The position numbers and the translations under genes were made by a program. 48,124 nt of DNA from Bacteroidales bacterium (GTDB lineage: Bacteria; Bacteroidota; Bacteroidia; Bacteroidales; Paludibacteraceae): contig JAAYQF010000070.1 of assembly GCA_012519425.1 (NCBI GenBank), positions 1 to 48,124 of the forward strand. Direction: 5' to 3'. Every line of letters starts with the position of its first letter. Position 1 is the stretch's first letter. This document shows positions 7,691 to 33,734 of the stretch, piece after piece. The notes below the pieces were generated by a model, which made no database searches, was not told the DNA's origin, and worked only from the letters and a program-made list of their open reading frames with translations.

Positions 7691-7722
7691 TTTGTGCAAG
7701 CTCACAACTATAAATATATTTG
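7691..7722 (+). promoter_or_regulatory. Bacteroidetes sigma-factor promoter for the central PUL operon
   Basis: TTTG at 7691-7694, a 20-nt spacer, then TATATTTG at 7715-7722. Both boxes match the Bacteroidetes -33/-7 consensus perfectly. Transcription would start near 7729 and give a leader of about 237 nt before the ATG at 7967. It separates the first enzyme operon from the outer-membrane block. Confidence 0.7.
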
Positions 7723-7966
7723 ATTGTCGAAAGATAAAATTATAAAAATGATGAAATACACGTATCCTGAATAAGTACCGGAGAGTCTATGTTTATCATG
7801 AAAAGCAATGAATTTCTCAAATCAAGTGCAAGATAAAGCGGAAAATCATCAATTACATTACCTGAAAAATAAGAATTTATTTACTTATGTCAGAATCAGA
7901 TACAAGCATAAACTTATTTAAAATTATTATTTGGAGTTATTATTTAATTATTTAAATTTTACAATC

Positions 7967-10713: not shown

Positions 10714-12666
10714 ATGAATAAAATACCACAAAAGCTATGCGTTCTCTTGCTGATTAGTCTCTTTTGGGGATGCCTTGACTCGGATGATGTTGGTGATAAC
10801 TTTGTCACTTTTGAGGGAAAAGTTATTTCAACTTATTTGGAAGAAAATCCTGAAATTTTCTCCGATTTCACAGAGATGTTGATAAAGGTAGAGGCCTTTG
10901 AATTATTGAAATCGTATGGGAAATATACCTGTTTTATTCCGACCAATGAAGCGGTGCAGAATTATTATACTCAGCGAAATACTTCGTTAGAGAACCTGAC
11001 CAAAAAAGAACTTAAAGAACTTGTTTTCTATCACCTGATTGATGGAGAAAAAAACAAATCGAAAAATTATTTTTCTCGTGATTTTATTATTGGTTCTATT
11101 GATACGCAGAATATGGTTGGACGCTATATTTATACCAGTTTTGAGCCTCAATCAGCATCTTGGATCGTTAATAATAGTGCAACAATTATTCAATCCGATA
11201 TGGAACTGAGTAATGGTGTTGTACATGTGGTGGATAAAGTTTTAGAGGGGAATAATGATTTGTTGCCCGATATGTTAAAAGCTAATAAGCGTTTTTCAAT
11301 TTTCTCTGCAGCATTAGAGGCTACAGGCCTGAGGGAAATTATGTTACTGATTGACGATCCGAGTTATGTAGCACCCCTCACACTTCCTAATGGAAGTCCA
11401 ATCACAGACAGGGAACATTATCCTAAAAGTAAAGTATACGGCTTTACAATTCTTGCCGAGAGTGATAGTATTATGAAATTACGGGAGGGTATTACTGATT
11501 TAGACGGATTACGCCAATTTGCCAAAGAAGTATATCCGGATTATACCGATGAGGATGAGACAAGTCAAGGAAACAGTTTGAATCGTTTCGTGGCATATCA
11601 TATCATTCCGGCAAAGATACGAAGTAATCGTTTTGTATTAACTTATGGTTATATTTCGGAATTCGAGTGGTTTGACAGCCAGCGCAAACAAGAAATTTGT
11701 TATGATGGGAGATACACGATTGAACAGTACCACATACCTATCGCAGGTGATGCCTTGATCCATTTTCAAAAAGGCAATATCATTAATACCGACCGAAATG
11801 TATTTATGGAAAACTTGACATCTTCAGACGAAGTAATACGAATCCTGACGATGGAAAGTGATCTGGATTGTCAGAACGGGATATTACATTCTCTCAACAA
11901 TATGTTAGTCTACGATAAGTATGTGATTGAAACCGTATTGCATCGCCGTATCCGTATGGACTTTTCAACGTTTTTGCCTGAGTTGATCAATAATGACGTG
12001 ATTGCTTACGCAAATAAATATAATCAATGGCATCGGATAATTCCCGATGATTATTGTGCAAAGCTGAAGTTCAAGGAGAAACGTCCCAAAGTGTATATGA
12101 AATATATGGCTCCTAATGTACACCCTTACCTGCATGGAGATGAAATTATGAGCTATGGTTTTAGCGATGTGACATTTACCATCGGACCAGTTCCACCGGG
12201 AACCTATGAAGTTCGTTTTGGGTACCATTCAAGTCCGGGCACTCGAGGAATAACACAGATTTATTTAGATGGCGTTCCTTGTGGGGTTCCTTTGGATATG
12301 CGTTTAACAAATACAGCAGCAGATATTGGATGGGAAATAGATTATCATACTGTTTCTCTTATGGGAGAAAGTGGTGGGAACCCTGATGATCCTTACGGGT
12401 ATGAAAATGATAAGAGTCTTCGAAATCGGAATTTTATGAAAGCACCCGACTCGTACACCGGGACTGTTTTTTATCAAAATACTGATAATAGGCTTTACAC
12501 AGCCCGACAGGCAAACAATGATACACGCTATATCGTAAAACGAAATCATAATCATTTAGGGGGAACAATGGAGATGAGATTCGTCCAAATGTTGGATGGA
12601 GACTGTCTTTATGATTATGTGGAGTTCATGCCGGTTGACCTGATAGAGGATGAAGATACACATTAA
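10714..12666 (+). CDS. Fasciclin (FAS1) domain surface lipoprotein, two FAS1 domains plus C-terminal beta-sandwich
   Basis: 650 residues with a lipobox at LFWGC (Cys20) followed by LDSDD, an acidic run like those used for surface export in Bacteroidetes. FAS1 domain 1 covers about 35-180 with the H1 box GKYTCFIPTNEAV (69-81), YH motif VFYHLI (about 104) and H2 box NGVVHVVDKVL (about 167). FAS1 domain 2 covers about 190-405 with YGFTILAESDSI, VAYHII and NGILHSLNNML. Residues 430-650 are different, beta-rich (PPGTYEVRFGYHSSPG, QIYLDGVPCGV), like a galactose-binding or carbohydrate-binding sandwich. It is the first gene after the hairpin at 10549-10663 and 26 bp before a second FAS1 gene. Likely role: glycan capture or adhesion at the SusCD complex, inferred from context only. 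Confidence 0.82.
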   Translation: MNKIPQKLCVLLLISLFWGCLDSDDVGDNFVTFEGKVISTYLEENPEIFSDFTEMLIKVEAFELLKSYGKYTCFIPTNEAVQNYYTQRNTSLENLTKKELKELVFYHLIDGEKNKSKNYFSRDFIIGSIDTQNMVGRYIYTSFEPQSASWIVNNSATIIQSDMELSNGVVHVVDKVLEGNNDLLPDMLKANKRFSIFSAALEATGLREIMLLIDDPSYVAPLTLPNGSPITDREHYPKSKVYGFTILAESDSIMKLREGITDLDGLRQFAKEVYPDYTDEDETSQGNSLNRFVAYHIIPAKIRSNRFVLTYGYISEFEWFDSQRKQEICYDGRYTIEQYHIPIAGDALIHFQKGNIINTDRNVFMENLTSSDEVIRILTMESDLDCQNGILHSLNNMLVYDKYVIETVLHRRIRMDFSTFLPELINNDVIAYANKYNQWHRIIPDDYCAKLKFKEKRPKVYMKYMAPNVHPYLHGDEIMSYGFSDVTFTIGPVPPGTYEVRFGYHSSPGTRGITQIYLDGVPCGVPLDMRLTNTAADIGWEIDYHTVSLMGESGGNPDDPYGYENDKSLRNRNFMKAPDSYTGTVFYQNTDNRLYTARQANNDTRYIVKRNHNHLGGTMEMRFVQMLDGDCLYDYVEFMPVDLIEDEDTH

Positions 12667-12692
12667 GTATGTAATCATTAAATGAGGACAAA

Positions 12693-15182
12693 ATGGTGAA
12701 TATTAAGAATTTAATAAAAATAGCTTTGCTTTCTCTGCCTATTTATTGTCTTTTCTTTTCTTGTTCCGACAAGTTCGATGAATGGGAAAACCATGAACCT
12801 GATTGGCTGGGAGAAAATATTTATGACTATTTGAAATCAAGAGGAGATTGCAATTACTACGTTCGTTTAATAGAAGATTGCGGATATAAAGAAACCATGC
12901 AGCGTACAGGTAGTAATACACTCTTTTTTTCCAGTGATGCAGCATTCGAACGCTTTTTTCAGAACAACGCAAGTGGAATCAAAAGTTATGAAGAATTTTC
13001 CGATGTTTTTAAAAACATGCTGCTTAGATTAAGCATGTTAAATAATGCCTATTTAATAGATCGTTTGTCGTACAATGAAAAAGGAAGTTTGGCCTTTCGA
13101 AGAACTACGTATTTGCAACCAACGGATACAATCCCACTTGTAAATTGGTCAGAACTCCCCAAGAATCCTTACTTTTCAAAATTTTCAGGGGAAGATATTT
13201 TCCTATTACAAGATCACACGCAATGGACATTAGTCCAGTTTTTTCCAAGTATATTAAAAGGCAAGAATATTTCAGATGAAGATTTCGCCTTTATTACCGG
13301 AGAGATAAGGGAAGAAAATGATGCATTCCTCTATAACTCCCGTATTATAGCCCGTGATATTGTTTGTAAAAACGGATATTTACATGAGATGGATGAGTTA
13401 TTACTTCCACCTGATAATATGGCTCAATATATACGGAAAAATAAAGAGGTTAGCATTTTTAATAGTTTAATGGATCGTTTTGCTTATCCGGTTCCCTATA
13501 GTTTTTCAGAGCTTACGGGAGATACAATTTTTTCACTCCGTTATTTTAATAGTTCAACCGTAATGCCACTTACTACAGATGGGTCAGGGAAATTATCCGA
13601 AGGGTTGCTTTACTATGACCCGGGATGGAATAAATTCCAGGCAACAGTAAATTCACCTCAACAGGAAATGTGGGAAACTGATATGGGTGCAATGTTAGTT
13701 CCAACAAATGAGGCCATGCAAGCCTATTTTTCTCCCGGAGGAGAGGGAGAAGAAATATATAATGCTTTTGGCGGGTCATGGGATAATGTTCCGACCTCTA
13801 TCGTTGCGGATATAATTGCAAACCATCAACGCTATTCTTTTATAAATTCACTTCCAAGTCGATTCAGTTCAATGAAAGATGAAGCGGGTTATGACATAAC
13901 AATAAACAAAGACGAAGATATAAAAGAGACATTCATTGCTCGTAATGGATTGATCTATGTGGTAAATAAAGTTTTCCCACCTTTAGACTACAGGACTGTG
14001 ATGGGTCCGGTGAAGGTAGACCAGGATACTCGCATATTTAATTTGGCTATTGGTGATTCCTATTGTCAGTTTAAATATTATTTAAGATCGATACAAAACT
14101 TATTTCAGTTCTTTGTTACTCCCGATTTAAGCATGATTGATTACTTAGATCCTGTATCACTGGGATATACTGACGATAAAAAAGCCCGGTGGAGATTTGC
14201 TATAAACGAAAGTGGTAATATAATCGCAAGAAGATATAATGCTATAACCGGGGAAAGACTAACGGGTTCGGATTCAATTGTGACTGAAAAGAACATTATT
14301 AAAAATCGTCTGGAGGACATTCTAAATCAACAAACTATTATTGGAACAATTAACCATGGTCAGGAATACTACATTACTAAAGGAGGAGCTCCTCTGAGAG
14401 TAAAGGGAAATAGCGTGGGAAACCTTGTAGTTGGAGGAGGAAATATTGAGCAAGATAAGGAGCTTCAGATAATAAAAACGTATGAAAATAAAAGTAACGG
14501 CTCTACTTATTACCTCAGCGGAATAGTGGAAAGCGCAACGGTTTCAGTTTATAGAACATTAGCCAATCATACTGAATTTAGCGAGTTTTTCCGTCTGTGT
14601 AATGCTTCCTGGCCGGAAGGGGCTGATATGGATATATTTACCAATCTTACCACTGATCGGAAACGTGCACTAGATTCTAAAGTTAAATTTTTTGACCTGT
14701 TTAACTATACTATTTATGTTCCAACCAATCAAGCAATTCAAAATGCCATTACATCCGGAATTATTCCCGATCCGGATAAAATAAGTGAATTGGCCGGAGG
14801 AGATTTGGAAATAGAATATGAATTGTATGATAAATTAAGACGTTTTCTACGTTATCATTTTCAAGATAATTCAGTCTTCATTAAAGGTGAGATCTTGAAT
14901 AAAGCTGAGTATAAAACAGCAACAATCAATAATAAGGAGCATTATGACCCGAACTACCCATTAAATAAGTTTTTTCCAATAAGAGTTACACATGATGGTG
15001 ACAATATTACTTTGTACACTCACAAAGGAGGGACTGCTAAAGTAATAAAAGATAATAATCTATATAACCTAATAGCCAGAGACATTGTTGTAAATCACAG
15101 TTCAACGATCAATGCTACACAAATCGAAACTTCCTCTTGGGTTGTGATTCATCAGGTTGACGATGTGCTTTTGTGTGAATAA
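12693..15182 (+). CDS. Fasciclin (FAS1) domain surface lipoprotein, about four FAS1-like domains
   Basis: 829 residues with a lipobox at LFFSC (Cys24) followed by SDKFDE. FAS1-like units can be followed by their H1 and H2 boxes: GSNTLFFSSDAAF (about 73) with NGYLHEMDELLL (about 228), GAMLVPTNEAM (about 332) with NGLIYVVNKVF (about 419), a degenerate third unit (about 445-625) with long beta-rich insertions, and FNYTIYVPTNQAI (about 670) with WVVIHQVDDVLL at the very C-terminus. Unlike the other two FAS1 proteins it ends on a FAS1 domain and lacks the C-terminal sandwich. It lies 25 bp before susC, so it is co-transcribed with it. Function by analogy only: an accessory surface glycan-binding protein in the place of SusE/SusF. 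Confidence 0.8.
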   Translation: MVNIKNLIKIALLSLPIYCLFFSCSDKFDEWENHEPDWLGENIYDYLKSRGDCNYYVRLIEDCGYKETMQRTGSNTLFFSSDAAFERFFQNNASGIKSYEEFSDVFKNMLLRLSMLNNAYLIDRLSYNEKGSLAFRRTTYLQPTDTIPLVNWSELPKNPYFSKFSGEDIFLLQDHTQWTLVQFFPSILKGKNISDEDFAFITGEIREENDAFLYNSRIIARDIVCKNGYLHEMDELLLPPDNMAQYIRKNKEVSIFNSLMDRFAYPVPYSFSELTGDTIFSLRYFNSSTVMPLTTDGSGKLSEGLLYYDPGWNKFQATVNSPQQEMWETDMGAMLVPTNEAMQAYFSPGGEGEEIYNAFGGSWDNVPTSIVADIIANHQRYSFINSLPSRFSSMKDEAGYDITINKDEDIKETFIARNGLIYVVNKVFPPLDYRTVMGPVKVDQDTRIFNLAIGDSYCQFKYYLRSIQNLFQFFVTPDLSMIDYLDPVSLGYTDDKKARWRFAINESGNIIARRYNAITGERLTGSDSIVTEKNIIKNRLEDILNQQTIIGTINHGQEYYITKGGAPLRVKGNSVGNLVVGGGNIEQDKELQIIKTYENKSNGSTYYLSGIVESATVSVYRTLANHTEFSEFFRLCNASWPEGADMDIFTNLTTDRKRALDSKVKFFDLFNYTIYVPTNQAIQNAITSGIIPDPDKISELAGGDLEIEYELYDKLRRFLRYHFQDNSVFIKGEILNKAEYKTATINNKEHYDPNYPLNKFFPIRVTHDGDNITLYTHKGGTAKVIKDNNLYNLIARDIVVNHSSTINATQIETSSWVVIHQVDDVLLCE

Positions 15183-15207
15183 TTTTAATGCTTATTGAAA
15201 TTGAAAT

Positions 15208-18200
15208 ATGAAAAAAATTATAAATAAAACAATTGTACTCACAACTCTGCTATTGATATACTGTCCCCTGTTTGCACAGATTGACAATGTTGTAAGTGGG
15301 AGAGTAACTTCTATGGTTGATAACGAGGTTTTGATAGGTGTTTCTGTAACGGAGATAGATGCCACGAATAGAGTTATTGGCGGAACTGTAACTGACCTGA
15401 ATGGTGATTACGTATTACACATGAAAAACAGAGCCAATAAAATAGAGTTTTCTTATATGGGCTATAAACCTCAATCTGTTAAAATTACAAACTCTTTAAA
15501 AATCAATATTAAACTTGTCGAGGATGAAAAAATGCTTGAAGAGGTTCTTATAACAGGTCGTACTCAGGTATATGACGGGGGATTGAGTGTTAAACAACGA
15601 GAAATTAGTATGGCCATATCAAAAATTGAAGCCAAAGAATTTGAGAATATTTCGGTCTCTTCTGTCGATGAAGCTTTACAGGGTCGTATAGCCGGACTTG
15701 ACATTGTGAGTTCGGGTTCTCCCGGGACCGGATCGGCGATGCGTATCCGTGGAGTGACGTCTATTACGGGTAATTCACAGCCATTGGTAGTCGTAAATAA
15801 TATTCCGTTCAGTGGTGAGATGGCTTCTGATTTTGATTTTACGACAGCAAATGAGGATCAGTATGCCGAACTGTTGAATGTAAATGTGGATGATATCCAG
15901 GAAATAGTGGTATTAAAAGATGCTGCCTCCACAGCTATGTGGGGTTCTCGGGGTGCTAATGGGGTTTTGATGATCACTACAAAAAAAGGAGCAAAAGGAA
16001 GAACAAGGGTACAATATTCATATAGGCTATCGGGCAAAACTCAACCTGCCGGAATGACTATGCTTTCCGGTGATGATTATACCATGTTGATGAAGCAAGC
16101 TAATTTTAATAGAACATTGGCAGGTAATGAGACTCCCCGACTTGTTCCTGAGTATAATTATGATACTTCTTTTCCTGAATATCACAACTTTAATAAAAAT
16201 ACAGATTGGGTAAGTGCAGTTACACAAACAGGTTGGACTCATGATCATTATCTAACCATAAGTGGAGGTGGGGAAAGAGCCCGGTTTCGCGTTTCCGGAG
16301 GGTACTTTGATGAAACAGGTACAGTTATCGGACAAGATATGAAACGCTATTCCTTTCGTTCTGATTTGAATTACTATATTTCTGACCGGTTAAGAATTGA
16401 TTCGGAGTTTCAGTTTACCCAGTCAACAACAAACCGGGATTATACTGATGGTACTTTTAGAGAGTCCATTTTGGATATCGCATATAGAAAGATGCCCAAT
16501 GTCAGCATTTTAAAATTCACTCAAGATGGAATGATGACTCAAGATTATTACAATATTCGTTCTGATTCTGATTTGGATGCCGGACAAAAAAACTTATTAA
16601 ACCCTGTAGCTTTAGCTAATTTAGCCGAAAATCAAGTGAAAAATACGACTATCTTACCAACAATGAGATTATCGTATGACATCATCGAGCCAACATTCTC
16701 GTCTTCTTTTCGTTATTCCGGCTATGTTTCATTGGATGTAAGAAACTCAGAAACCAATAAGTTTTTACCAGGAGAGGTCTCTAATCTTTCATGGGATAAT
16801 TCAAGTGTGAATTATGCGACGGGAGTTTCTACAGAAAAACAGTCTGTGATGACAGAAAATAAATTGACATACATTACTTCGTTCGAGGACAAACATAGTA
16901 TTCAGGCTTATTTAGCCGTCAATAGTTCCACAAGTCAATCAAATGGTCAAACGATTGAATCGTATGGGCACCCCGGAAGCAATCTTTCTTCTCCAACCTC
17001 TGAAGCGTATATGAGAAACTTTGAAAACCACTTTGATAAAGATAGGTCTATTAGCGCATTAGCCAGAGCTCATTATGTGTATCTGGGGCGTTATATAGTA
17101 GATGTCAATATGCGGATGGATGGCTCAACGAAGTTTGGTCCGAATAATCGTTATGGCTTCTTTCCCGGAATCTCAGCCAAGTGGATAATTTCTGACGAGA
17201 TGTTTATGAGTAGTTTTTCTGAATGGTTGACTTTATTCGCAATTCGTCCCAGTTGGGGAGTTTCCGGCAATCAACCCGGAGCCAATTATCTTTATCATAG
17301 TAGATATACTCCTGATAATGTTGGCTACATGGAAATGTCAGGAACTTATCCCAATTCAATTAAAATTTCTAATTTGCGCTGGGAAAAAGTAAAATCACTC
17401 AACTTGGGTTCTGATTTGGAACTGTGGGAAGGCATGTTTGCTGCTTCGTTTGATTATTATAAAAAACGTACAACAGATATGTTATTCCGAAGTATGGATA
17501 TACCTACTACTACCGGATTTTCTCAAATATCCTATAAAAATGCAGGAACAATGGATAATGAAGGTTGGGATTTGGAACTTTTTTGTAACAGATTATTACA
17601 AACGAGTAATTTTTCGATGGACTTTTCCTTAGTTTTTGGTCGGTCAAAGAATACAATTATTGAATTGGATCCGTTGATTTTAGCCAAATACAATGACCCT
17701 GGATCAAGTGTAGATAATGGAAGATATCTTTCCCGGTTACAAGAAGGAAATTCATATGGATCTATCTACGGGTTTCGCTATAAAGGTGTTTACCAATACA
17801 GCTATAATAATTATAAAGCAGGAGAAAGAGAAAATGCGCCGGTCGCACGCGATGCCAATGGTAATGTAATGCATGACAATAATGGCGTGGCCAAACCCGT
17901 GTATTATAAATATGCGTCAACCAAATATCAGTTTCAAGGGGGTGATGTGATTTATGAAGACATTAATAATGATGGTTCTATCGACGAATATGATATTGTT
18001 TATCTTGGAAATTCAAATCCTAAACTGACTGGAGGTTTTGGAACCGTTGTGCGTTATGGAAATCAAGATGCATCGAAATTTGGTAGTTTCTCTGCTAATT
18101 TATTTTTTAATTTTCGCTATGGGAATAAGATTGTAAACAGGGCACGCATGAACGCTGAAAACATGTACACCGACAACAATCAAACTACGACAACGAATTG

Positions 18201-18531
18201 GCGATGGAGAAAAGAAGGTGATATAACAGAAGTCCCCCGTGCCGTTTATAATCAAGCCTATAATTGGCTGCCCAGCGATCGCTATGTAGAGGATGGTTCT
18301 TTTCTGCGTCTGAAGTATCTGACAGTTCGATATTCATTTCCTAAACACTGGATTACCCTGGTGGGATTATCTCAGACCAGCCTTTACCTAACAATTAATA
18401 ATGTGTTTTGCTTAACTAAATATTCAGGGGTCGATCCTGAAGTAGGGTATGGTAATTTTGGAGTATCAACGGATAATTCATCGACGCCAAGGGCTAAGAG
18501 TTGGACTTTTGGTATTAATACAACATTTTAA
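15208..18531 (+). CDS. SusC/RagA-family TonB-dependent outer membrane transporter (first pair)
   Basis: 1107 residues, normal for the family. A signal peptide (residues 1-23, ending PLFAQ) precedes a carboxypeptidase-D regulatory-like domain (about 27-105: VSGRVTSMVDNEVLIGVSVTE), a TonB-box-like EEVLITG (about 111-117) and a plug with SSVDEALQGRIAGLDIVSSGSPGTG and MRIRGVTSITGNSQPLVVVNNIPF, all typical of SusC. A Ca-loop-like DINNDGSIDEYD lies near 918, and the barrel ends in phenylalanine (FGINTTF), as outer-membrane barrels do. It imports oligosaccharides with the SusD encoded next; the stop TAA overlaps the susD ATG by one base. Confidence 0.95.
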   Translation: MKKIINKTIVLTTLLLIYCPLFAQIDNVVSGRVTSMVDNEVLIGVSVTEIDATNRVIGGTVTDLNGDYVLHMKNRANKIEFSYMGYKPQSVKITNSLKINIKLVEDEKMLEEVLITGRTQVYDGGLSVKQREISMAISKIEAKEFENISVSSVDEALQGRIAGLDIVSSGSPGTGSAMRIRGVTSITGNSQPLVVVNNIPFSGEMASDFDFTTANEDQYAELLNVNVDDIQEIVVLKDAASTAMWGSRGANGVLMITTKKGAKGRTRVQYSYRLSGKTQPAGMTMLSGDDYTMLMKQANFNRTLAGNETPRLVPEYNYDTSFPEYHNFNKNTDWVSAVTQTGWTHDHYLTISGGGERARFRVSGGYFDETGTVIGQDMKRYSFRSDLNYYISDRLRIDSEFQFTQSTTNRDYTDGTFRESILDIAYRKMPNVSILKFTQDGMMTQDYYNIRSDSDLDAGQKNLLNPVALANLAENQVKNTTILPTMRLSYDIIEPTFSSSFRYSGYVSLDVRNSETNKFLPGEVSNLSWDNSSVNYATGVSTEKQSVMTENKLTYITSFEDKHSIQAYLAVNSSTSQSNGQTIESYGHPGSNLSSPTSEAYMRNFENHFDKDRSISALARAHYVYLGRYIVDVNMRMDGSTKFGPNNRYGFFPGISAKWIISDEMFMSSFSEWLTLFAIRPSWGVSGNQPGANYLYHSRYTPDNVGYMEMSGTYPNSIKISNLRWEKVKSLNLGSDLELWEGMFAASFDYYKKRTTDMLFRSMDIPTTTGFSQISYKNAGTMDNEGWDLELFCNRLLQTSNFSMDFSLVFGRSKNTIIELDPLILAKYNDPGSSVDNGRYLSRLQEGNSYGSIYGFRYKGVYQYSYNNYKAGERENAPVARDANGNVMHDNNGVAKPVYYKYASTKYQFQGGDVIYEDINNDGSIDEYDIVYLGNSNPKLTGGFGTVVRYGNQDASKFGSFSANLFFNFRYGNKIVNRARMNAENMYTDNNQTTTTNWRWRKEGDITEVPRAVYNQAYNWLPSDRYVEDGSFLRLKYLTVRYSFPKHWITLVGLSQTSLYLTINNVFCLTKYSGVDPEVGYGNFGVSTDNSSTPRAKSWTFGINTTF

Positions 18532-20081
18532 TGATAATTGACATGAAAAATAGATTAACTTATATTGTTCTCTTAATAATTTTATCTATTTCATTTCCCT
18601 CTTGTGATGATTGGCTAAGTATAAAACCGGAAGGAGATATCGTTGAAGATGATTTTTGGCAATCAGAAGCAGACGTGAAAGGCATGGTTATGTCGGCATA
18701 TCGCTTCCTGTCGTCAGCCAATACAATGAACCGGATAGTAATATGGGGAGAATTTCGATCTGACAATATTTCGCTTGAAAGTTCTGCCAGCAATGATGAA
18801 AGAAATATTTTCAATGTAAATATTTTGCCTGCAAATGGGCTTACATCTTGGGGTGATTTTTACAAGGTAATAAATATTTGTAACTTGATTCTTGAAAAGG
18901 CTCCTGCTGTAAGAGAACGTGATTTGGATTTCTCTGAAAATTCTTTAAATAACTATTTAGCTGAAGCTTTGACTATTCGTTCTCTCTGCTTCTTCTATTT
19001 GGTTAGAGTTTATGGGCGTGTTCCTTTGGTATTGGAGGCAACAATTTCCGAAAATCAAAATATGGATTGTAGACAATCGGATGAAAGCGTTGTTCTGGAA
19101 CAAATTATTAAAGATCTGATTTTAGCCGAAGAATATGCAGCTATTCAATGGGAATCAAACGCCTTGACAAAAGGGAGAGTTACTCGCAATGCTGTAAGAG
19201 CCTTATTAGCTGATGTGTATTTGTGGAATATGCAGTACGACGAATGTATAAATGCTTGTGATAGAATTCTGGATGATAAGTCTGCAATGCTTGAGTTGGT
19301 TGACGGGAAAACTATGTTTTCTGATGTTTTTGGACAAGGAAATTCAACTGAGAGTATTTTTGAACTCAATTTTTCAATAAACGGACAACGAAATGATGCG
19401 ACTGCAAGTCTGTATGGAAATCCTCAAAAAAATAGAAGTCCGCATGTAAAGGCTTCTCCGGGATTATATAATTCTTACAAGACCGTCGATCAATTGGATA
19501 TTAGGGGTAAAGATTTTCTTGGAAGTTCCAACCGGGGATACAGAATATATAAATATGAAGCCGTTTCTTCTCTTTCTGATTTTTCGGAAGAAGCTTCTTT
19601 CCCTCAAGGGTATTACAGATCCGCTTCATCTACTTCTAATTGGATTTTTTACCGTTTACCCGATATCTATCTCATAAAAGCAGAGGCTTTGTCTGAAAAA
19701 GAAGGAGCTTCAGAAACTGATTATAGAGAGGCCCTAGCCCTGGTAAATCTTGTTTATGAACGAGCTACCCTCAACAATGATTCTTATTTATTTGATAATT
19801 ATTCTTCCGGGGTAGCAATTAAAAAATTGATATTGGAAGAAAGAAGAAGGGAATTTGCTTTTGAAGGGAAACGCTGGTTTGATTTATTACGAAAAGTACG
19901 TAAAGAAGAAAGTACTATTGATACCTGGAATATTTTGGCCCTCAATTATGAAGAAAATGTAGAATTAATACGAGCTAAATTGTCTAACAAGAACGCATGG
20001 TACCTTCCGGTTAATCAAAATGAAATGTCGCTTAATCCAAACCTGGTACAAAACCCGTTTTATCAGGTGTCAGGGTATTAA
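18531..20081 (+). CDS. SusD/RagB-family glycan-binding lipoprotein (first pair)
   Basis: 516 residues. The ATG at 18531 overlaps the susC stop; a second ATG at 18543 would give the more usual MKNRLTYIV start, and both lead to the same lipobox (FPSC, Cys25 from the first ATG), followed by DDWLS. The family signatures are present: CDDWLSIKPEGDIVEDDFWQSEADVKGMVMSAYRFL at the N-terminus, a TPR-like helical region (EALTIRSLCFFYLVRVYGRVPLV), and the C-terminal RREFAFEGKRWFDLLR motif. It is the lid and binder of the upstream SusC barrel. It is 8 bp from the following FAS1 gene. Confidence 0.95.
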   Translation: MIIDMKNRLTYIVLLIILSISFPSCDDWLSIKPEGDIVEDDFWQSEADVKGMVMSAYRFLSSANTMNRIVIWGEFRSDNISLESSASNDERNIFNVNILPANGLTSWGDFYKVINICNLILEKAPAVRERDLDFSENSLNNYLAEALTIRSLCFFYLVRVYGRVPLVLEATISENQNMDCRQSDESVVLEQIIKDLILAEEYAAIQWESNALTKGRVTRNAVRALLADVYLWNMQYDECINACDRILDDKSAMLELVDGKTMFSDVFGQGNSTESIFELNFSINGQRNDATASLYGNPQKNRSPHVKASPGLYNSYKTVDQLDIRGKDFLGSSNRGYRIYKYEAVSSLSDFSEEASFPQGYYRSASSTSNWIFYRLPDIYLIKAEALSEKEGASETDYREALALVNLVYERATLNNDSYLFDNYSSGVAIKKLILEERRREFAFEGKRWFDLLRKVRKEESTIDTWNILALNYEENVELIRAKLSNKNAWYLPVNQNEMSLNPNLVQNPFYQVSGY

Positions 20082-20089
20082 TAAAAATA

Positions 20090-21745
20090 ATGATTATGAT
20101 ACAAATAAAAAATATAACCAGATATATTGTTGCTTACTCTCTGTGCATCTTCCTGTTTTTAGCATGTCAGGATAAGTATTGGGACGATCATTACAATCCT
20201 AATAATGAATTTAATGAAAAAACATTACTTCAATTGGTAGAGGGAGAGCCCAATTTATCAAAATTCAACACAATGTTGAAAGAAGCACAAATGGATTCTA
20301 TCTTGATGACATCACAATCTTTCACCATATGGGCGCCAACTAATGAAGCTTTAGAAGCCTATACATCTTCTGATAAAGAAATGGCAACACAAGTTGTAAA
20401 GAATCACATCGCCCGTTTTGTTTATTCTCCTGCAGATTTGGATGGTGAAAATGCCATTCGAATAAAAATGTTGAATAACAAATATCAAAATTATACCCGA
20501 CGTGCTGATGGTATATATATGGCAAATACAAAAGTTATTTCAAAAACCCGAATAGCTTCAAATGGTGTGCTTCAAGTAGTCGATAATCTTTTTGAATTAA
20601 ATCCCAGTCTGTGGGAAATCATGATTGAGGGGGAGAATACGGACTCAATAGCGAAATATCTCACGGCTTTTGACGAATATATTTTCGATCCGGTTGCAAG
20701 TACGCCTATCGGAACAGATGAACTAGGACAAAGTATTTACGATTCCGTGTTTATTCATCGAAACAAATGGCTCTCTCTCTTTGGTAGAATTGAGAAAGAA
20801 GATAGTGTTTATATGGCTATAATACCTACCAATTCCGCTTGGAATGAAGCTTTCACAAGAATTAATCCTTATTTTAGAACTATTGGTGAAATGCTTGAAG
20901 AAACAATAAATCAGTCAACTTATATTACTACTCGCGAGTATTTGATGGGGGATGAAATAGCTGATTCTTTGCAATTCAACCATACGCGAGAAACGATTGC
21001 TCAAGATTTAATATTCCGGCAAAAATCAGATAATATCCCGAATGACTCTCTTATTTCAAGTAATGGGAATGTGTTTTATGATCCGGGTTATTTATTTTCT
21101 GACGCAACTTACACCAATGCCAGTAATGGTTGGGCTTATATGACAGATAAATTATTACATAAACCAAAAGAATCCTGGCACAAAAGAATCGAATTAGAAG
21201 CAGATCAGTGTTTATCTCGTTTCAGATATGCCACAGTTGTTACCCGAAATGTAAAAGAGGATGGAAATTATTTTCACCAGGTCTCGGGAGCAAAATTTTT
21301 GGAGATAAGTAATACAAGCACTAATCCCAATATGCAACCTTATGCTATCTTTAATATCCCGAATACTTTGGCTGCTAAATATGATATCTATTGTACGTTC
21401 GTACCCTTGGAGTCTTACGAGGTAGGGAAAGCAGATACAACTAAGGTACGGTTTACGCTGAATTATGTTCATGAAGATGGAAAGATGCACGAAGATCCTG
21501 TGATTTCAAAAGATCCCATTAGTGGAGAAGTGTATACAACTAATCCACGCGGCATGACTAAACTTTTGGTAGCTAAAGGATTTAAATTTCCATTTGCCAA
21601 CTTCACAAATTCTCGTTTCGAAGAAAAAACTCAGCGGATAAATGTTTTGTTAAAGGTACAAACTAATGTGTCCAATACCGAAACTAGTAAATATAATAGG
21701 ATATTGCGAATTGACCGATTGATTTTGGAACCTGTAAATGAATAA
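20090..21745 (+). CDS. Fasciclin (FAS1) domain surface lipoprotein between the two SusCD pairs
   Basis: 551 residues, lipobox FLAC (Cys26) followed by QDKYWDD. FAS1 domain 1 spans about 35-170 with QSFTIWAPTNEAL (about 77), VVKNHIARFV and NGVLQVVDNLF (about 158). A second FAS1 unit spans about 180-355 with DSVYMAIIPTNSAW (about 240) and NGWAYMTDKLL. Residues about 365-551 are beta-rich (AKFLEISNTSTNP, YDIYCTFVPLESY, RFTLNYVHEDGK, NRILRIDRLILEP), resembling a galactose-binding-type sandwich and similar in layout to the protein at 10714. It is 8 bp after susD-1 and 11 bp before susC-2, so it is part of the same transcript. Its position suggests it serves one or both transporters. Confidence 0.82.
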   Translation: MIMIQIKNITRYIVAYSLCIFLFLACQDKYWDDHYNPNNEFNEKTLLQLVEGEPNLSKFNTMLKEAQMDSILMTSQSFTIWAPTNEALEAYTSSDKEMATQVVKNHIARFVYSPADLDGENAIRIKMLNNKYQNYTRRADGIYMANTKVISKTRIASNGVLQVVDNLFELNPSLWEIMIEGENTDSIAKYLTAFDEYIFDPVASTPIGTDELGQSIYDSVFIHRNKWLSLFGRIEKEDSVYMAIIPTNSAWNEAFTRINPYFRTIGEMLEETINQSTYITTREYLMGDEIADSLQFNHTRETIAQDLIFRQKSDNIPNDSLISSNGNVFYDPGYLFSDATYTNASNGWAYMTDKLLHKPKESWHKRIELEADQCLSRFRYATVVTRNVKEDGNYFHQVSGAKFLEISNTSTNPNMQPYAIFNIPNTLAAKYDIYCTFVPLESYEVGKADTTKVRFTLNYVHEDGKMHEDPVISKDPISGEVYTTNPRGMTKLLVAKGFKFPFANFTNSRFEEKTQRINVLLKVQTNVSNTETSKYNRILRIDRLILEPVNE

Positions 21746-21756
21746 TAGAGGTAGTT

Positions 21757-24700
21757 ATGAGAAAAATAATTTACAACACACTTGTGAGCTTCTTATTTGC
21801 TTTCTTGTTGCATTCAACAGTTGTGGCACAAGAGACGGTCGAGGTAAAATTGATTGCTAAGTCATTTCCTTTGGAGGTGACAGGAACTGTTGAAGATGCG
21901 GTGAGTGGAGTTCCTTTACACGGCGTAAGAATTGAAGTAAAAGGTATATCTTCCGCAATAACCAATGAAAAAGGGGAATATAAAATAGGTGTTCCTTATA
22001 ATTCGGCTGTTTTATCTGTCTATTTTGATGGATATCAAGAACGACAGATCCCTGTTCGTGGAGAAACAGTGAAAAACATTTTACTTTTTCACGAAGTGTT
22101 TTCCTCCCTAAAAGAAAAAAGGGAAGCATCTATCTTAACTCCGGCATTGGTTATTGATGACGAGATTCAGACTCGTTTCGCAGATGATATTCGTACCATA
22201 TCTCGTTCTGCATCACCAGCTGTCGGAGCCAACATGTTTGTTCGTGGATTCAACACATTAAACACAAATACACAGCCACTGGTTGTCCTCGATGGAACAG
22301 TTTGGGATAATTCCGTCGGTTATGGTTCCGTTTTCTCCGGATTTTATATGAATCCATTGGCAAGTATTGATGCTATGGATATCGAATCTATCGAAGTGAT
22401 TAAAAATGCTTCTTCTATTTATGGTAGTAAGGGAGCAAACGGAGTTATTTTGATTAAAACAATCCGTAGCAGGACAGAAGTAACTAAAATCTCGTTCGAT
22501 GCTATGTTTGGCTCTAATTTAAAACCGAAGTTTCTGCCGGTTATGGATGCTTCTCAATACCGTACATATGCAAGTGAGATTATGAAGGGCATAACTTCAG
22601 AAGATTTTATCGAACAAGCAGAAAATACTTTCTTGAACGTTGATCCGTCAAAGTTAAATTATTCCACATACCACAATGAAAACAATTGGTCAGATGATAT
22701 TTTTCGTGTAGGCAATACTCAACGATATAATTTCAATGTGAAGGGAGGTGACGATATAGCCAAGTACGCTGTTTCACTTGGATATGCAAGTGCACTCTCA
22801 CCAATTAAAGAAACTGATTACAGCCGGTTAAACACACGAATCAATTCTGATATCAATCTCTCCAAAGTCATTAAACTTGGAACGGATATTTATTTTACCC
22901 GGCAGTCCAGAAAATTATTTGATGACGGAACCGAGGAGCGGACTTCCCCAAGCTTTCTGTCACAGATAAAATCTCCTTTCCTTGTCGGTTACAACTATAC
23001 AGCTTTGGGTGATAAACTGACTAATAATTTGGCTGACAGTGATGTGCTGGGAATCTCAAATCCTTTGGCAATACTCGATCTGGCTAAAGGAAAAAATCAA
23101 CAGTATAAATTAGGAATAAGCATTTTTGGTGACTGGCAGATATTAAATTATTTAAAGCTGAATGCCCGTTTTAGTTCCGCATTAGAGAACACGAAAGAAC
23201 ATTATTTTATACCAATGAAGGGAGTTCAGGGCTATTACAATGAACGGCATCGGTATATTGAAAATACAATAAAAAATAAGTCTTTCAGTCAGCTCTCACT
23301 CTTTGGAGAAATGAGTATCGCCTATGGCAAAGTATTTTTAGATAAGCATAATTTAAGCGCTTCAGCCGGTATGCGGATTTATTCGAATTCGTTGGAATAT
23401 ACGTTCGGTGAAGGACATAATTCAGGTGATGACAAGAAAACCAATCTGTCAAACAGCTTAGCATATAAAAAGTTGGAAGGAGCGGACGATGATTGGAATT
23501 CAGCTTCTCTATTCATGAATGTTCATTATTTGTTTCAGGAGAAATACGATTTATGGTCAACTTTTGCAATGGATGCCTCCTCTCGTTTTGGAAATGAGAC
23601 AAAGGACGGATTCCGGATGTTAGGAGGTTCCTGGGGGATATTCCCTTCTGTAGGAGCAGCCTGGACCATTTCCAGTGAGCCTTTTATGAAGTCGCTACCT
23701 TTTGTTTCTCTGTTACGCGTATTTGCCGACTATGGATTAACAGGAAATGATGCTATCGGAAATTTATACCGATATTCCTATTTGCGACCAATCAATTATT
23801 ATGGTGTGGCTACAGGTTTACAGATTGATAACCTCGGTAATGAAACCTTGCAGTGGGAAACGACAACAAAATCTAGCTTAGGGGCTGAAATTGGTTTGTG
23901 GAATGATCGAATCCGGCTTTCAGGTGATATTTATAAACATCAAACAAAAAACTTGTTGACAGTGAAAGAAGCACATCGGGCAACGGGTCGTTCGTATTAT
24001 TGGAGTAATGATGGGGAACTACAAAACACAGGCTTTTCACTGGGTGTAGGACTTAAACTGGTAAACTTAAAAGATTTGAAATGGAGTCTGGAGGCAACTG
24101 CGGCCCATTATAAAAATAAAATAACAGCATTGCCCGATGGTGACTACGTTACCTCTGTTCTTGGAGGTGAAATACTCACTTCTGTAAACAATCCTGCAGG
24201 TCTTTTCTACGGTTATAAAACTCATGGTGTTTTTGCTTCGAATGAATTGGCCAAAGCAGCTTATCAAGGAGTAGGACTGAAAAAACAAAATGAAGATGCA
24301 TCTTATTCATATTTTATGGCAGGGGATATTCATTTTGAGGATCTTGACGGGAACGGAATTATCGATGAAAAGGACCGCCAGATAATTGGAGATCCAAATC
24401 CACTTCTGACGGGTTCCTTGTTGAATAGTTTCTCAGTGTGGCTCTTTTCCTTGAATGTCCACTTCACCTATTCGATAGGTAACGATGTGTACAACCATCA
24501 TCGTATGTTGCTGGAAGGCGGAAATAGTTTCTTCAACCAAAGCATGAGTCTGCTGAATCGATGGAAAGCTGAAGGACAAATAACTGATGTTCCAAAAATC
24601 ACTTATGGTGATCCCATGCAAAATGCTCGTTTTTCAGACCGATGGATTGAGGATGGTTCATTCCTGAAATTAAAAGAGATACGTTTGATCTGTAATGTTC

Positions 24701-24888
24701 CGGTTAATGTTTCTTTTTTGAGTGGAATTACTCTTTGGATGTCTGGTACAAATCTTTATACCTGGACCAAATACTTAGGTGTAGATCCGGAAACTTCAAT
24801 TAGTTCATCAACTCTATATCAAGGAATAGACAATGGTTTATTATCCTATGGACGCTCGTATTATCTTGGAGTGAAAGTCAATTTTTAA
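21757..24888 (+). CDS. SusC/RagA-family TonB-dependent outer membrane transporter (second pair)
   Basis: 1043 residues with a signal peptide ending TVVAQ, a carboxypeptidase-D regulatory-like domain (about 38-110: VTGTVEDAVSGVPLHGVRIEVKG), a plug (about 135-245) with MFVRGFNTLNTNTQPLVVLDG and IESIEVIKNASSIYGSKGANGVILI, and a barrel ending in VKVNF. Ca-loop-like DLDGNGIIDEKDR lies near 864. It diverges from the usual plug: the LQGRxAG motif seen in the first SusC is absent, replaced by FADDIRTISRSASPAVGAN, and no clear TonB box precedes the plug. It is paired with the SusD 21 bp downstream. Family assignment is firm. Confidence 0.93.
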   Translation: MRKIIYNTLVSFLFAFLLHSTVVAQETVEVKLIAKSFPLEVTGTVEDAVSGVPLHGVRIEVKGISSAITNEKGEYKIGVPYNSAVLSVYFDGYQERQIPVRGETVKNILLFHEVFSSLKEKREASILTPALVIDDEIQTRFADDIRTISRSASPAVGANMFVRGFNTLNTNTQPLVVLDGTVWDNSVGYGSVFSGFYMNPLASIDAMDIESIEVIKNASSIYGSKGANGVILIKTIRSRTEVTKISFDAMFGSNLKPKFLPVMDASQYRTYASEIMKGITSEDFIEQAENTFLNVDPSKLNYSTYHNENNWSDDIFRVGNTQRYNFNVKGGDDIAKYAVSLGYASALSPIKETDYSRLNTRINSDINLSKVIKLGTDIYFTRQSRKLFDDGTEERTSPSFLSQIKSPFLVGYNYTALGDKLTNNLADSDVLGISNPLAILDLAKGKNQQYKLGISIFGDWQILNYLKLNARFSSALENTKEHYFIPMKGVQGYYNERHRYIENTIKNKSFSQLSLFGEMSIAYGKVFLDKHNLSASAGMRIYSNSLEYTFGEGHNSGDDKKTNLSNSLAYKKLEGADDDWNSASLFMNVHYLFQEKYDLWSTFAMDASSRFGNETKDGFRMLGGSWGIFPSVGAAWTISSEPFMKSLPFVSLLRVFADYGLTGNDAIGNLYRYSYLRPINYYGVATGLQIDNLGNETLQWETTTKSSLGAEIGLWNDRIRLSGDIYKHQTKNLLTVKEAHRATGRSYYWSNDGELQNTGFSLGVGLKLVNLKDLKWSLEATAAHYKNKITALPDGDYVTSVLGGEILTSVNNPAGLFYGYKTHGVFASNELAKAAYQGVGLKKQNEDASYSYFMAGDIHFEDLDGNGIIDEKDRQIIGDPNPLLTGSLLNSFSVWLFSLNVHFTYSIGNDVYNHHRMLLEGGNSFFNQSMSLLNRWKAEGQITDVPKITYGDPMQNARFSDRWIEDGSFLKLKEIRLICNVPVNVSFLSGITLWMSGTNLYTWTKYLGVDPETSISSSTLYQGIDNGLLSYGRSYYLGVKVNF

Positions 24889-24909
24889 CCTATAAATAAT
24901 AAACAGAAA

Positions 24910-26550
24910 ATGAAAAAGTACCTTATTATTATATTTTCAGGAATTTTATTTACATTCAATTCGTGTCACGACTTCTTCGAGTCCGACTCGACTAATGTCA
25001 GTATTACTAAAGGTGATACTATTGGAACAGAAAGGGAGGCTCTCTATGCTATGTCGGGAATCTTACAACATTTACAAGTCATCGGTGACAATTGGGTCAT
25101 TGCCAATGAATTGAGAGGGGATTTGCTAGCCGTAACTCACAATTCATCACAAGATTTGTGGGACATTTACAATTTTGAGGTAGAACCGACCAATTCTTAT
25201 CTGAATGACAGGGAATTTTATGCGCTTATTAATGATTGTAATTATTTGATTAAATATGTAGATACAACGAAGATTGTCCAAGATGAGAAGATTCTTAAAA
25301 GGTATATGTCGGCCACAAAATCTATCCGTGCCTGGGCATATATGCAAATGGCCATGATCTATGGACAAGTATATTATTCCACGGAACCCATATTGGATGC
25401 AACACAGGATATGTCGAAGTTACCAAAAATATCTATGGATGTTTTGGTCGATTCTTTATTGGATGATTTATCTCCTTTGAAACCGGTGGATAATACGATT
25501 GAACATTTCCCGGGTTATTTTGGAGAAAATACAGAAGATTACTTCATTCCGATAAGATTGGTGCTAGGTGATTTGTATCTATGGAAAAAGGATTATTATA
25601 ATGCGGCACTAATGTATTATCAACTTATTTTAACCAAGCGATTGGTGCTTAGTTCTTCTTTTCAAAACAAATGGAAAGATAATCAATTTCTGGAATATGG
25701 TACATTGACCTGGCGGCAACTTTTTCTCAATAGCGGAGAGGTGGTGTCTAAAATAAGATATACTGACGATTATGCGGAAAGTGTGACCATTTTAAGTAAA
25801 ATATTCAGCCCTGAATACTATTGGCTTGCTCCTTCTTTGACTGCAATCAGTAATTGGGAATCTCAAACATATGTTGAAACGGCAACAAGGACCACAGCAG
25901 GTGATTTAAGGGGACGGATAAATTCTTCTGGTCCAAATAAAAATGCAGGTTCCTATTATTCTGACAATTTGGGATCAAGTACTATAGAAGAGATTCTATA
26001 TCCTGTAGTAAGCAAGTATGAATTCAATAATAACACAACATACTTATGTCGTGCTTCGCAGGTTTATCTAAAATATGCCGAAGCTGTAAATCGCTTAGGA
26101 AAGCATTATCTTGCCTTAGCTGTACTAAAAAAGGGATTGAATAGAGAATCTTTGACCAGTCTGGTTTCCCAGTCTGAGCTCGCAGGTAATGAACCGTTCC
26201 TTGATTTTGGACAAAACACCCCATATTTAGCCGATTTGTTTAGCGCGAATAAAGGAATACAAGAAAGAGGTTGTGGAAATGTCGGTTTGCTATCAACATC
26301 TATCCCTACGGGTGTTGATACATTAATTTGGGTAGAAGATCAGATTATCATGGAAGCAGCTTTGGAAAATGCATTCGAAGGTAATCGCTTTGTTGACCTG
26401 ATGCGTGTAGCGAACCATAGGGACGACCCATTGTATCTTGCTAAAATGGTCGCTTCTAAATTCCCTCCGGGACAAAAGGAGGCTATGGAACAAAAACTAT
26501 CGGATAAGGAAAACTGGTTTTTCCCTGAAAGTGAAATGAAAAATCAATGA
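24910..26550 (+). CDS. SusD/RagB-family glycan-binding lipoprotein (second pair)
   Basis: 546 residues, lipobox FNSC (Cys19) followed by HDFFESD. The SusD layout is present but divergent: an N-terminal DFFESDSTNVSITKGD, a TPR-like stretch KSIRAWAYMQMAMIYGQVYY (about 137-156), and the C-terminal EDQIIMEAALENAFEGNRFVDLMRVANHRDDP with a final WFFPESEMKNQ. It follows the second SusC by 21 bp and precedes the lyase-like gene by 38 bp, so the operon probably continues. The tryptophan- and tyrosine-rich segment near residues 295-330 may contribute to ligand contact; this is a guess. Confidence 0.92.
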   Translation: MKKYLIIIFSGILFTFNSCHDFFESDSTNVSITKGDTIGTEREALYAMSGILQHLQVIGDNWVIANELRGDLLAVTHNSSQDLWDIYNFEVEPTNSYLNDREFYALINDCNYLIKYVDTTKIVQDEKILKRYMSATKSIRAWAYMQMAMIYGQVYYSTEPILDATQDMSKLPKISMDVLVDSLLDDLSPLKPVDNTIEHFPGYFGENTEDYFIPIRLVLGDLYLWKKDYYNAALMYYQLILTKRLVLSSSFQNKWKDNQFLEYGTLTWRQLFLNSGEVVSKIRYTDDYAESVTILSKIFSPEYYWLAPSLTAISNWESQTYVETATRTTAGDLRGRINSSGPNKNAGSYYSDNLGSSTIEEILYPVVSKYEFNNNTTYLCRASQVYLKYAEAVNRLGKHYLALAVLKKGLNRESLTSLVSQSELAGNEPFLDFGQNTPYLADLFSANKGIQERGCGNVGLLSTSIPTGVDTLIWVEDQIIMEAALENAFEGNRFVDLMRVANHRDDPLYLAKMVASKFPPGQKEAMEQKLSDKENWFFPESEMKNQ

Positions 26551-33521: not shown

Positions 33522-33734
33522 GAGAACAAAGACAAATTAACTAAGAACGAAGAAGAACAAAGAACAAAGATAATAGAACAAAGATAAAAGAACAAAGACG
33601 CAAAGACAAATTAACTAAGAACTAAAAACGATGAACTAAAAACTGAACTCGCGACCCCGGAACACGAAACCCGTTAACTTCTCTAACTTCTTTTACTTCT
33701 TTAACTTCTCAGCTACTAACTACTAACTACTAAT
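33522..33734 (+). repeat. Modular low-complexity repeat, copy A
   Basis: A stretch of AACAAAGA-like units (33522-33610), then CTCGCGACCCCGGAAC (33648-33663), TAACTTC-type units (33674-33710) and TAACTAC units (33715-33731). The order of modules is the same as in copy B, but the core is more diverged. It fills the space between tRNA-Lys and the PspC gene. Confidence 0.8.

Follow-up and report, generated by a model that had tools for sequence, protein, structure and literature searches.

A seven-gene FAS1–SusCD block

The window analysed here is a stretch of 48,124 nucleotides from a Bacteroidales bacterium of the Paludibacteraceae (contig JAAYQF010000070.1 of assembly GCA_012519425.1), whose 2.39 Mb genome is held in 142 contigs and is 94.7% complete. 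Between positions 10714 and 26550 the window carries a block of seven genes that encode two SusC and two SusD homologues together with three lipoproteins built from FAS1 (fasciclin) domains, for which the names FAS_L, FAS_M and FAS_S are coined in the present analysis. All seven open reading frames (ORFs) are open over the following coordinates:

10714 to 12666, plus strand: FAS_M, a 650-residue lipoprotein with two FAS1 units and a C-terminal part of about 240 residues (Pfam Fasciclin, E 3.2e-23)
12693 to 15182, plus strand: FAS_L, an 829-residue lipoprotein with four FAS1 units, the third weak (Pfam Fasciclin, E 1.6e-16)
15208 to 18531, plus strand: SusC1, 1107 residues, with N-terminal extension, plug and the TonB-box-like LEEVLITG (Pfam, TIGR04056)
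18531 to 20081, plus strand: SusD1, a 516-residue SusD lipoprotein, the presumed lid of SusC1 (Pfam SusD_RagB, SusD-like_3)
20090 to 21745, plus strand: FAS_S, a 551-residue lipoprotein with two FAS1 units and a C-terminal part of about 190 residues (Pfam Fasciclin, E 1.5e-14)
21757 to 24888, plus strand: SusC2, 1043 residues, with N-terminal extension and an unrecognisable TonB-box/early-plug segment (Pfam plug, TIGR04056)
24910 to 26550, plus strand: SusD2, a 546-residue divergent SusD lipoprotein (Pfam SusD_RagB, E 5.5e-9; SusD-like_3)

By their ORF coordinates the genes follow one another with gaps, in block order, of 26, 25, -1 (an overlap), 8, 11 and 21 bp, and 38 bp separate SusD2 from a lyase-like gene at 26589. 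Both SusC proteins contain the SusC-type plug and carboxypeptidase-regulatory domains (Pfam) and exceed the TIGR04056 cut-off, SusC2 with 560 bits against a cut-off of 368. The N-terminal extension, TonB box, plug and barrel of SusC1 are all recognised by Pfam, TIGR04056 and a wider box pattern, and TIGR04056 identifies the barrel and N-terminal extension of SusC2. SusC and SusD homologues thus lie side by side, as in a polysaccharide utilisation locus (PUL).

An earlier reading of the bare sequence (the sequence-only reading) had described two FAS1 lipoproteins, of two and about four FAS1 units, ahead of the first SusC–SusD pair, a third between the pairs, gaps of 38 bp or less, and lipoboxes followed by acidic residues as in the SusD proteins. 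The ORFs and Pfam bear out this gene content, and the gaps inside the block do not exceed 26 bp. Counting with an iterated domain profile gives two and four units for the first two lipoproteins and two for the third. In all five lipoproteins of the block the lipobox cysteine is followed by acidic residues (C-LDSDD, C-SDKFD, C-DDWLS, C-QDKYW and C-HDFFE).

The block belongs to a conserved type of cassette with the order FAS_L-SusC1-SusD1-FAS_M-FAS_S-SusC2-SusD2, of which it is a rearranged copy: FAS_M stands at the front, its common place being after SusD1. The comparisons described below suggest, with about an even chance of being right, that this is an old cassette whose seven genes together make one composite outer-membrane uptake machine.

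Recurrence of the cassette

In the source genome, FAS1 matches at E 0.001 fall on three contigs only, each of which has a cassette-type block, and all ten FAS1 genes (nine found by Pfam and the tenth, on contig C67, by similarity) lie in or beside these three blocks. On C67 (L037, 7114 to 15957) three FAS_M genes, one of them on the opposite strand, precede FAS_L-SusC1-SusD1-FAS_S-SusC2-SusD2. Contig C13 has the same six genes in the same order, with no FAS_M within the part read. Because the FAS1 genes of this genome are all found in or beside the three blocks, and because the arrangement recurs in other Bacteroidota, it is more than chance.

FAS1 is present in 18 of 40 genomes, the source genome included. 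Twenty stretches from relatives, among them six cassette copies from one genome (G004), show the order FAS_L-SusC1-SusD1-FAS_M-FAS_S-SusC2-SusD2 wherever they are not cut short, although, having been chosen for their FAS1 matches, they are no test of linkage. Two genomes yielded fragments only (G006 and G010), and three have FAS1 proteins of 196–317 residues whose loci, short as read, show no SusCD (G028, G038 and G039). A simpler set, SusC-SusD followed by one FAS1 protein, occurs in G005, G008 (where SusC is cut off), G022 and one locus of G002. In such sets (L188, 7942 to 13198; L189, 128 to 5274; L191, 4491 to 5990; L190, 3201 to 9710) the FAS1 protein has about 200 residues (540 in L190), the SusC bears a TonB box in L188 and L189 and is cut off in L191, and no second SusCD adjoins within the stretches read.

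Linkage was assessed in an unbiased search that used the SusC1 alignment alone against an 84,980-species genome collection, from which the best 80 of at least 308 relatives were kept. Of the loci kept, 45 reach an identity of at least 33% and make up the cassette set (L060–L101, L103, L104 and L129). Sphingobacterium phlebotomi (L102) and Parapedobacter composti (L106), at 29–30% identity, have a reduced cassette without FAS_S, and the remaining 33 loci, which hold the nearest non-cassette SusCs, served as controls; mean locus length is similar (19.9 vs 20.4 kb). The sequence-only reading had staked its case on a recurrent FAS1–SusCD linkage, and this is what was found: FAS_L immediately precedes SusC1 in 44 of 44 loci with upstream sequence (L091 starts inside SusC1), as against any FAS1 ORF at all in two of the 33 control loci (L107 and L128), and gene order is conserved. 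The full canonical order is seen in 28 of the 45 loci. Nine of the other 17 are truncated where a contig ends (L066, L067, L072, L076, L087, L089, L091, L098 and L104), five are without FAS_M (L073, L075, L085, L099 and L103) and one is without FAS_S (L093); in L061 SusC2 is split over two ORFs, and in L068 an antisense ORF is called at the FAS_M position. Carriers include Bacteroidaceae and Prevotella metagenome-assembled genomes from the rumen, Paraprevotella clara and Geofilum rhodophaeum, with further records from Chitinophaga, Chitinophagaceae, Sphingobacteriales and Salegentibacter.

When all 68 loci are pooled, the gene next before SusC1 is FAS_L in all 67 that have upstream sequence. 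The canonical order is complete in 42, and the 26 without it include 14 that are truncated at a contig or stretch end. In 340 of 353 cases adjacent cassette genes overlap or are separated by no more than 100 bp. With the source genome excluded, 7 of 395 sampled genomes of the phylum have a near-full-length match to FAS_M (at least 590 of 613 positions), and 17 of 198 sampled genomes of the order have one that covers 480 positions or more; for these counts up to six candidates per genome were scored, and the adjoining SusCD was read for G030 only.

Two SusC types that diverge together

In the 45 cassettes that hold all six of FAS_L, SusC1, SusD1, FAS_M, FAS_S and SusC2, the pairwise distances of these proteins correlate with r 0.76–0.95 for all 15 protein pairs, values as high being reached in none of 500 permutations. 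SusD2 was left out because few full-length copies were available. Between the FAS1 proteins and SusC1 the correlation is r 0.91–0.95. A FastTree phylogeny of 76 SusCs, sampled as roughly one in three of the cassette SusCs and one in two of the controls with other SusCs of the source genome added, places 23 SusC1 sequences in one clade (support 1.0) and 19 SusC2 sequences in another (0.999), the two being joined (0.987) to the exclusion of the 34 others. This is as expected from one old duplication. By distance correlation and tree, SusC1 and SusC2 represent sister clades, each of a fixed type, and diverge together.

The TonB box of SusC1 and SusC2

In Bt1763 of Bacteroides thetaiotaomicron the TonB box is located between the N-terminal extension and the plug, and its TonB-box mutants are reported to have growth defects similar to those caused by loss of SusD (PMC7782687). 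A strict box pattern is found in 44 of 62 SusC1 and 25 of 34 control SusCs, as against 2 of 53 SusC2, sequences without a plug landmark having been dropped (five SusC1, two controls and three SusC2). With a matrix derived from the controls, 31 of 62 SusC1, 33 of 34 controls and 3 of 53 SusC2 score higher than the shuffles of their own group; as the level to be passed is the 95th percentile of each group's shuffles, chance would give about the figure seen for SusC2. The patterns have their own limits, in that some SusC1 matches are plug residues (for example LEGIQVSS) and the strict pattern misses the LEEVLITG of the window SusC1, which the wider one finds.

With neither the strict nor the wider pattern is a TonB box seen in the window SusC2, where the Pfam plug is matched only over profile positions 38–107 and the best stretch against TIGR04056 begins at position 125. 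By pattern and matrix, then, SusC2 shows no recognisable TonB box in the region that leads from its N-terminal extension to the plug, and no other shared motif is apparent to the eye in the half of 56 SusC2 N-termini that were inspected. SusC2 is SusC-like, and TonB dependence is not claimed for it. The source genome has 22 SusC homologues with a readable N-terminus (L156–L177), of which 17 carry a box-like motif by the wider pattern or, for L160 and L161, by eye; in L173 the pattern hit plug residues and the box was read by eye. The five without a box comprise all three SusC2 and two further SusCs that stand second in a tandem pair.

The last two belong to contiguous SusC-SusD-SusC'-SusD' sets without FAS1, in which the second SusC' lacks the canonical TonB box and may show degenerate forms such as LVQVAF. 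Those seen are:

Source genome: L186 (contig C49), 9553 to 12357, and L187 (contig C84), 10690 to 13572; both also without an N-terminal extension, the second SusD being cut off in L187
Relatives: L192, 6115 to 9150; L193, 2370 to 5378; L194, 6155 to 9259; L196, 6197 to 9250

Of six close SusC pairs in relatives, the box is absent from the second SusC in all four contiguous pairs and is kept in both SusCs of the non-contiguous L195 and L197. The idea that only FAS1 cassettes have a SusC without a TonB box is ruled out by these four relatives and the two sets of the source genome.

The sequence-only reading had imagined two transporters that handle different fragments of one glycan. As a full explanation this would make the block two independent TonB-powered SusCD importers of one PUL, with the FAS1 proteins as shared glycan-binding lipoproteins, an arrangement to which two complete SusCD pairs with short gaps, and two SusCs above the TIGR04056 cut-off, would be well suited. 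It fits poorly with pairs that are of fixed types, in fixed order and co-diverging, and with the 51 of 53 SusC2 in which no TonB box is recognisable by pattern. Given a SusC2 without a recognisable box and fixed, co-diverging SusC types, two equal and independently powered importers are not suggested by the sequence, and this explanation is rather unlikely.

The FAS1 lipoproteins

The iterated domain profile places the FAS1 units of the window proteins at residues 36–178 and 184–400 of FAS_M, at 41–239, 241–430, 434–613 (weak) and 617–827 of FAS_L, and at 44–169 and 172–357 of FAS_S. All three exceed the PF02469 gathering score, and in the alignments of FAS_M (with 21 relatives), FAS_L (22 sequences) and FAS_S (20 sequences) the same family is matched at E 0.01 or better by 22 of 22 FAS_M and 20 of 20 FAS_S. 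A lipobox is present in 60 of 67 FAS_L, 57 of 58 FAS_M and 55 of 57 FAS_S copies, and of these 47, 49 and 50, respectively, have an acidic residue at +2 to +6. By sequence pattern the FAS1 proteins thus carry the lipobox and acidic surface-export signal of SusE/SusF-type proteins. The suggestion that FAS1 proteins stand in for SusE and SusF holds as far as position is concerned, since FAS1 lipoproteins occupy the SusE/F-type place; that they bind glycan or form part of a complex is plausible.

FAS_M and FAS_S end in a non-FAS1 stretch of about 190–240 residues. For that of FAS_M the best profile hits, though weak, are modules from enzymes that degrade xanthan, namely 7ehg, which we take to be the xanthan-binding module MiXBM, and 6f2p (xanthan lyase). 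DUF5108, a domain of unknown function, is matched by 2 of 22 whole FAS_M at E 0.01 and by 5 of 41 FAS_M C-terminal parts at E 0.1. Aligned with each other, the C-termini of FAS_M and FAS_S give nothing credible (probability 12 and 11). A match of the FAS_S C-terminal part to deoxyguanosine kinase (E 0.0009) vanished with a deeper alignment and is therefore treated as chance.

As FAS1 is best known from adhesion proteins, the lipoproteins might instead be adhesins, directed at a particle, the host or a neighbouring cell, that are encoded in PUL operons and stand outside the import machine. Their best profile matches are periostin and TGFBIp, and a FAS1 protein is so interpreted in a marine-symbiont paper (PMC10199937). 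An adhesin would have no need to be linked, in fixed order, to one SusC clade or to co-diverge with SusC1 at r 0.91–0.95, and this explanation is improbable.

Neighbouring genes and cargo

Carbohydrate-active enzymes are linked to the block on both sides, as in a PUL. Upstream in the window are genes for glycoside hydrolase (GH) families GH127 and GH43, a heparinase-like protein (below the Pfam cut-off), a GH88-like protein and a protein sorted by the type IX secretion system (T9SS). Downstream are lyase-like, weakly GH28-like and GH39 genes. The lyase-like gene adjoining SusD2 does not belong to the cassette:

26589 to 29300, plus strand: 903 residues, weakly alginate-lyase-like (PF05426, 22.5 bits against a cut-off of 22.2)

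The T9SS-sorted protein (7931 to 10528, 865 residues) ends 185 bp upstream of the block and has, apart from its sorting tail, no other Pfam match at E 0.001. In relatives, a scan of 20 downstream proteins (19 of 38 listed, plus one of L046) found PF11790 (presumably GH128-like), GH95, GH31, GH3, GH92, arabinofuranosidase, BNR and T9SS-sorted proteins. Upstream of the cassettes, where 71 of 91 proteins were scanned, the families listed (25 of 95) are a mixed set that includes housekeeping genes. In four relatives (L140, L149, L151 and L152) the first gene after SusD2 encodes a protein of 823–936 residues with an immunoglobulin-like match (PF16640, in three of them under the cut-off), and none of the four has an enzyme domain at E 1e-5. 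A common substrate for all copies is ruled out by these differing neighbours, and the cassette is therefore not bound to one glycan.

A non-glycan cargo such as a peptide, glycoprotein or cofactor, with the carbohydrate enzymes nearby by accident, would suit the mixed upstream neighbours, the single recognised enzyme beside the C67 copy and the link of the SusCD-like RagAB to protein uptake, but is very improbable given the GH127, GH43 and GH39 genes of the window and the PF11790, GH95, GH31, GH3, GH92 and arabinofuranosidase genes downstream in several relatives.

Sigma-70-like sites number 69 in the window against 62.8 expected and therefore carry no information. A Bacteroidota-type promoter pattern, in what we take to be its usual form, has seven matches against 2.8 expected, one of which (7691 to 7722) precedes the gene at 7931; none is found in the 185 bp before the block. 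Two overlapping matches lie inside a TTTG-rich repeat on the minus strand (33565 to 33610).

A proposed composite uptake machine

In the composite machine proposed for the cassette, SusC1-SusD1 would be a TonB-powered importer of the pedal-bin type, and SusC2-SusD2 a diverged second barrel-and-lid, probably unpowered by TonB itself, that could act as a partner, a docking base or a substrate-holding subunit. Perhaps SusC1 and SusC2 associate as a heteromer where a SusC homodimer would be usual. On the cell surface the FAS1 lipoproteins would take the role of SusE and SusF, their FAS1 tandems acting as spacers and protein–protein contacts and the C-terminal stretches that follow them in FAS_M and FAS_S being candidate glycan-binding domains. 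The cassette is paired with different enzymes from one locus to another, those of the window (GH127, GH43, GH88-like, weakly GH28-like, GH39 and lyase-like) being of the uronic-acid/arabinose type.

A more specific version, held tentatively and at somewhat less than an even chance, is an asymmetric importer in which SusC1D1 and SusC2D2 form a heteromer with only SusC1 coupled to TonB. SusC2 would then be an ancient duplicate that has lost its box and become a passive or regulatory barrel, and the FAS1 lipoproteins an external scaffold. The pairing of a powered with an unpowered SusC may be a general Bacteroidota design, as second SusCs without a canonical box also occur in other contiguous tandem operons, two in the source genome and four in relatives.

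Several observations weigh against the composite machine. FAS_M is missing after SusD1 in L039, L073, L075, L085, L099 and L103, and FAS_S in L093, L102 and L106, so not every part is indispensable. Species relatedness accounts for part of the co-divergence. The absence of a box is a negative sequence result, to which a divergent or relocated box could also give rise, and with only 31 of 62 SusC1 passing the matrix test the contrast depends more on SusC2 against the controls. The carbohydrate-binding hint in FAS_M mostly weakened in a deeper alignment (7ehg from E 0.0005 to 0.6, 6f2p from 0.022 to 0.0096), and a profile search with the FAS_S C-terminal part found nothing credible. Finally, the one recognised enzyme beside the C67 copy is a GH88, which weakens the case for a glycan.

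Relation to known systems

SusCD systems dominate nutrient uptake in the Bacteroidota, and to our knowledge there is no agreed explanation for loci with two SusCD pairs. A phylum-wide conserved order, with fixed SusC roles and one SusC without the power-coupling motif, would make the question of why there are two directly testable, and FAS1 proteins, usually filed as adhesins, would gain a concrete place in nutrient import. Automatic annotation often places a 'fasciclin domain-containing protein' beside SusC and SusD, and the linkage may be familiar to annotators. Among the best-ranked matches to broad queries of the open-access literature and the full results of narrow ones, a scope outside which subscription papers and preprints fall, neither this cassette nor a SusC that has no TonB box is described. 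What comes closest is a FAS1-domain protein labelled in the figure legend of a Gramella PUL, which puts a FAS1 gene inside a marine Bacteroidota PUL, although it is a single label and the legend describes no cassette (PMC4891872).

Like the starch Sus (SusC-SusD-SusE-SusF), the cassette encodes extra surface lipoproteins with SusCD, but it differs in its FAS1 tandems and second SusCD pair. SusE and SusF themselves are not known to be FAS1 proteins. Tandem SusC/SusD loci are known, for example the xylan cluster XusA-XusB-XusC-XusD, which likewise has two SusCD pairs in tandem and in which we know of no FAS1 proteins. Periostin and TGFBIp share the FAS1 fold and have four FAS1 domains, as does FAS_L with its four matched stretches, but are animal matrix proteins without a SusCD link.

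A purified SusCDE complex from Flavobacterium johnsoniae shows SusCD co-purifying with a structurally unrelated surface lipoprotein of the same locus; it contains one SusCD pair, and the term FAS1 was not found in that paper (PMC12611786). The levan and dextran utilisomes of B. thetaiotaomicron are SusCD dimers that assemble the surface lipoproteins of the same locus (PMC7618045). The cassette resembles them in drawing a SusC barrel, a SusD lid and surface lipoproteins, of which one binds glycan in the utilisomes, from a single locus. Whilst the utilisomes combine one SusC type as a dimer with a surface glycan-binding protein and a glycoside hydrolase (PMC7618045), the cassette encodes two SusC types, two SusD types and three FAS1 lipoproteins.

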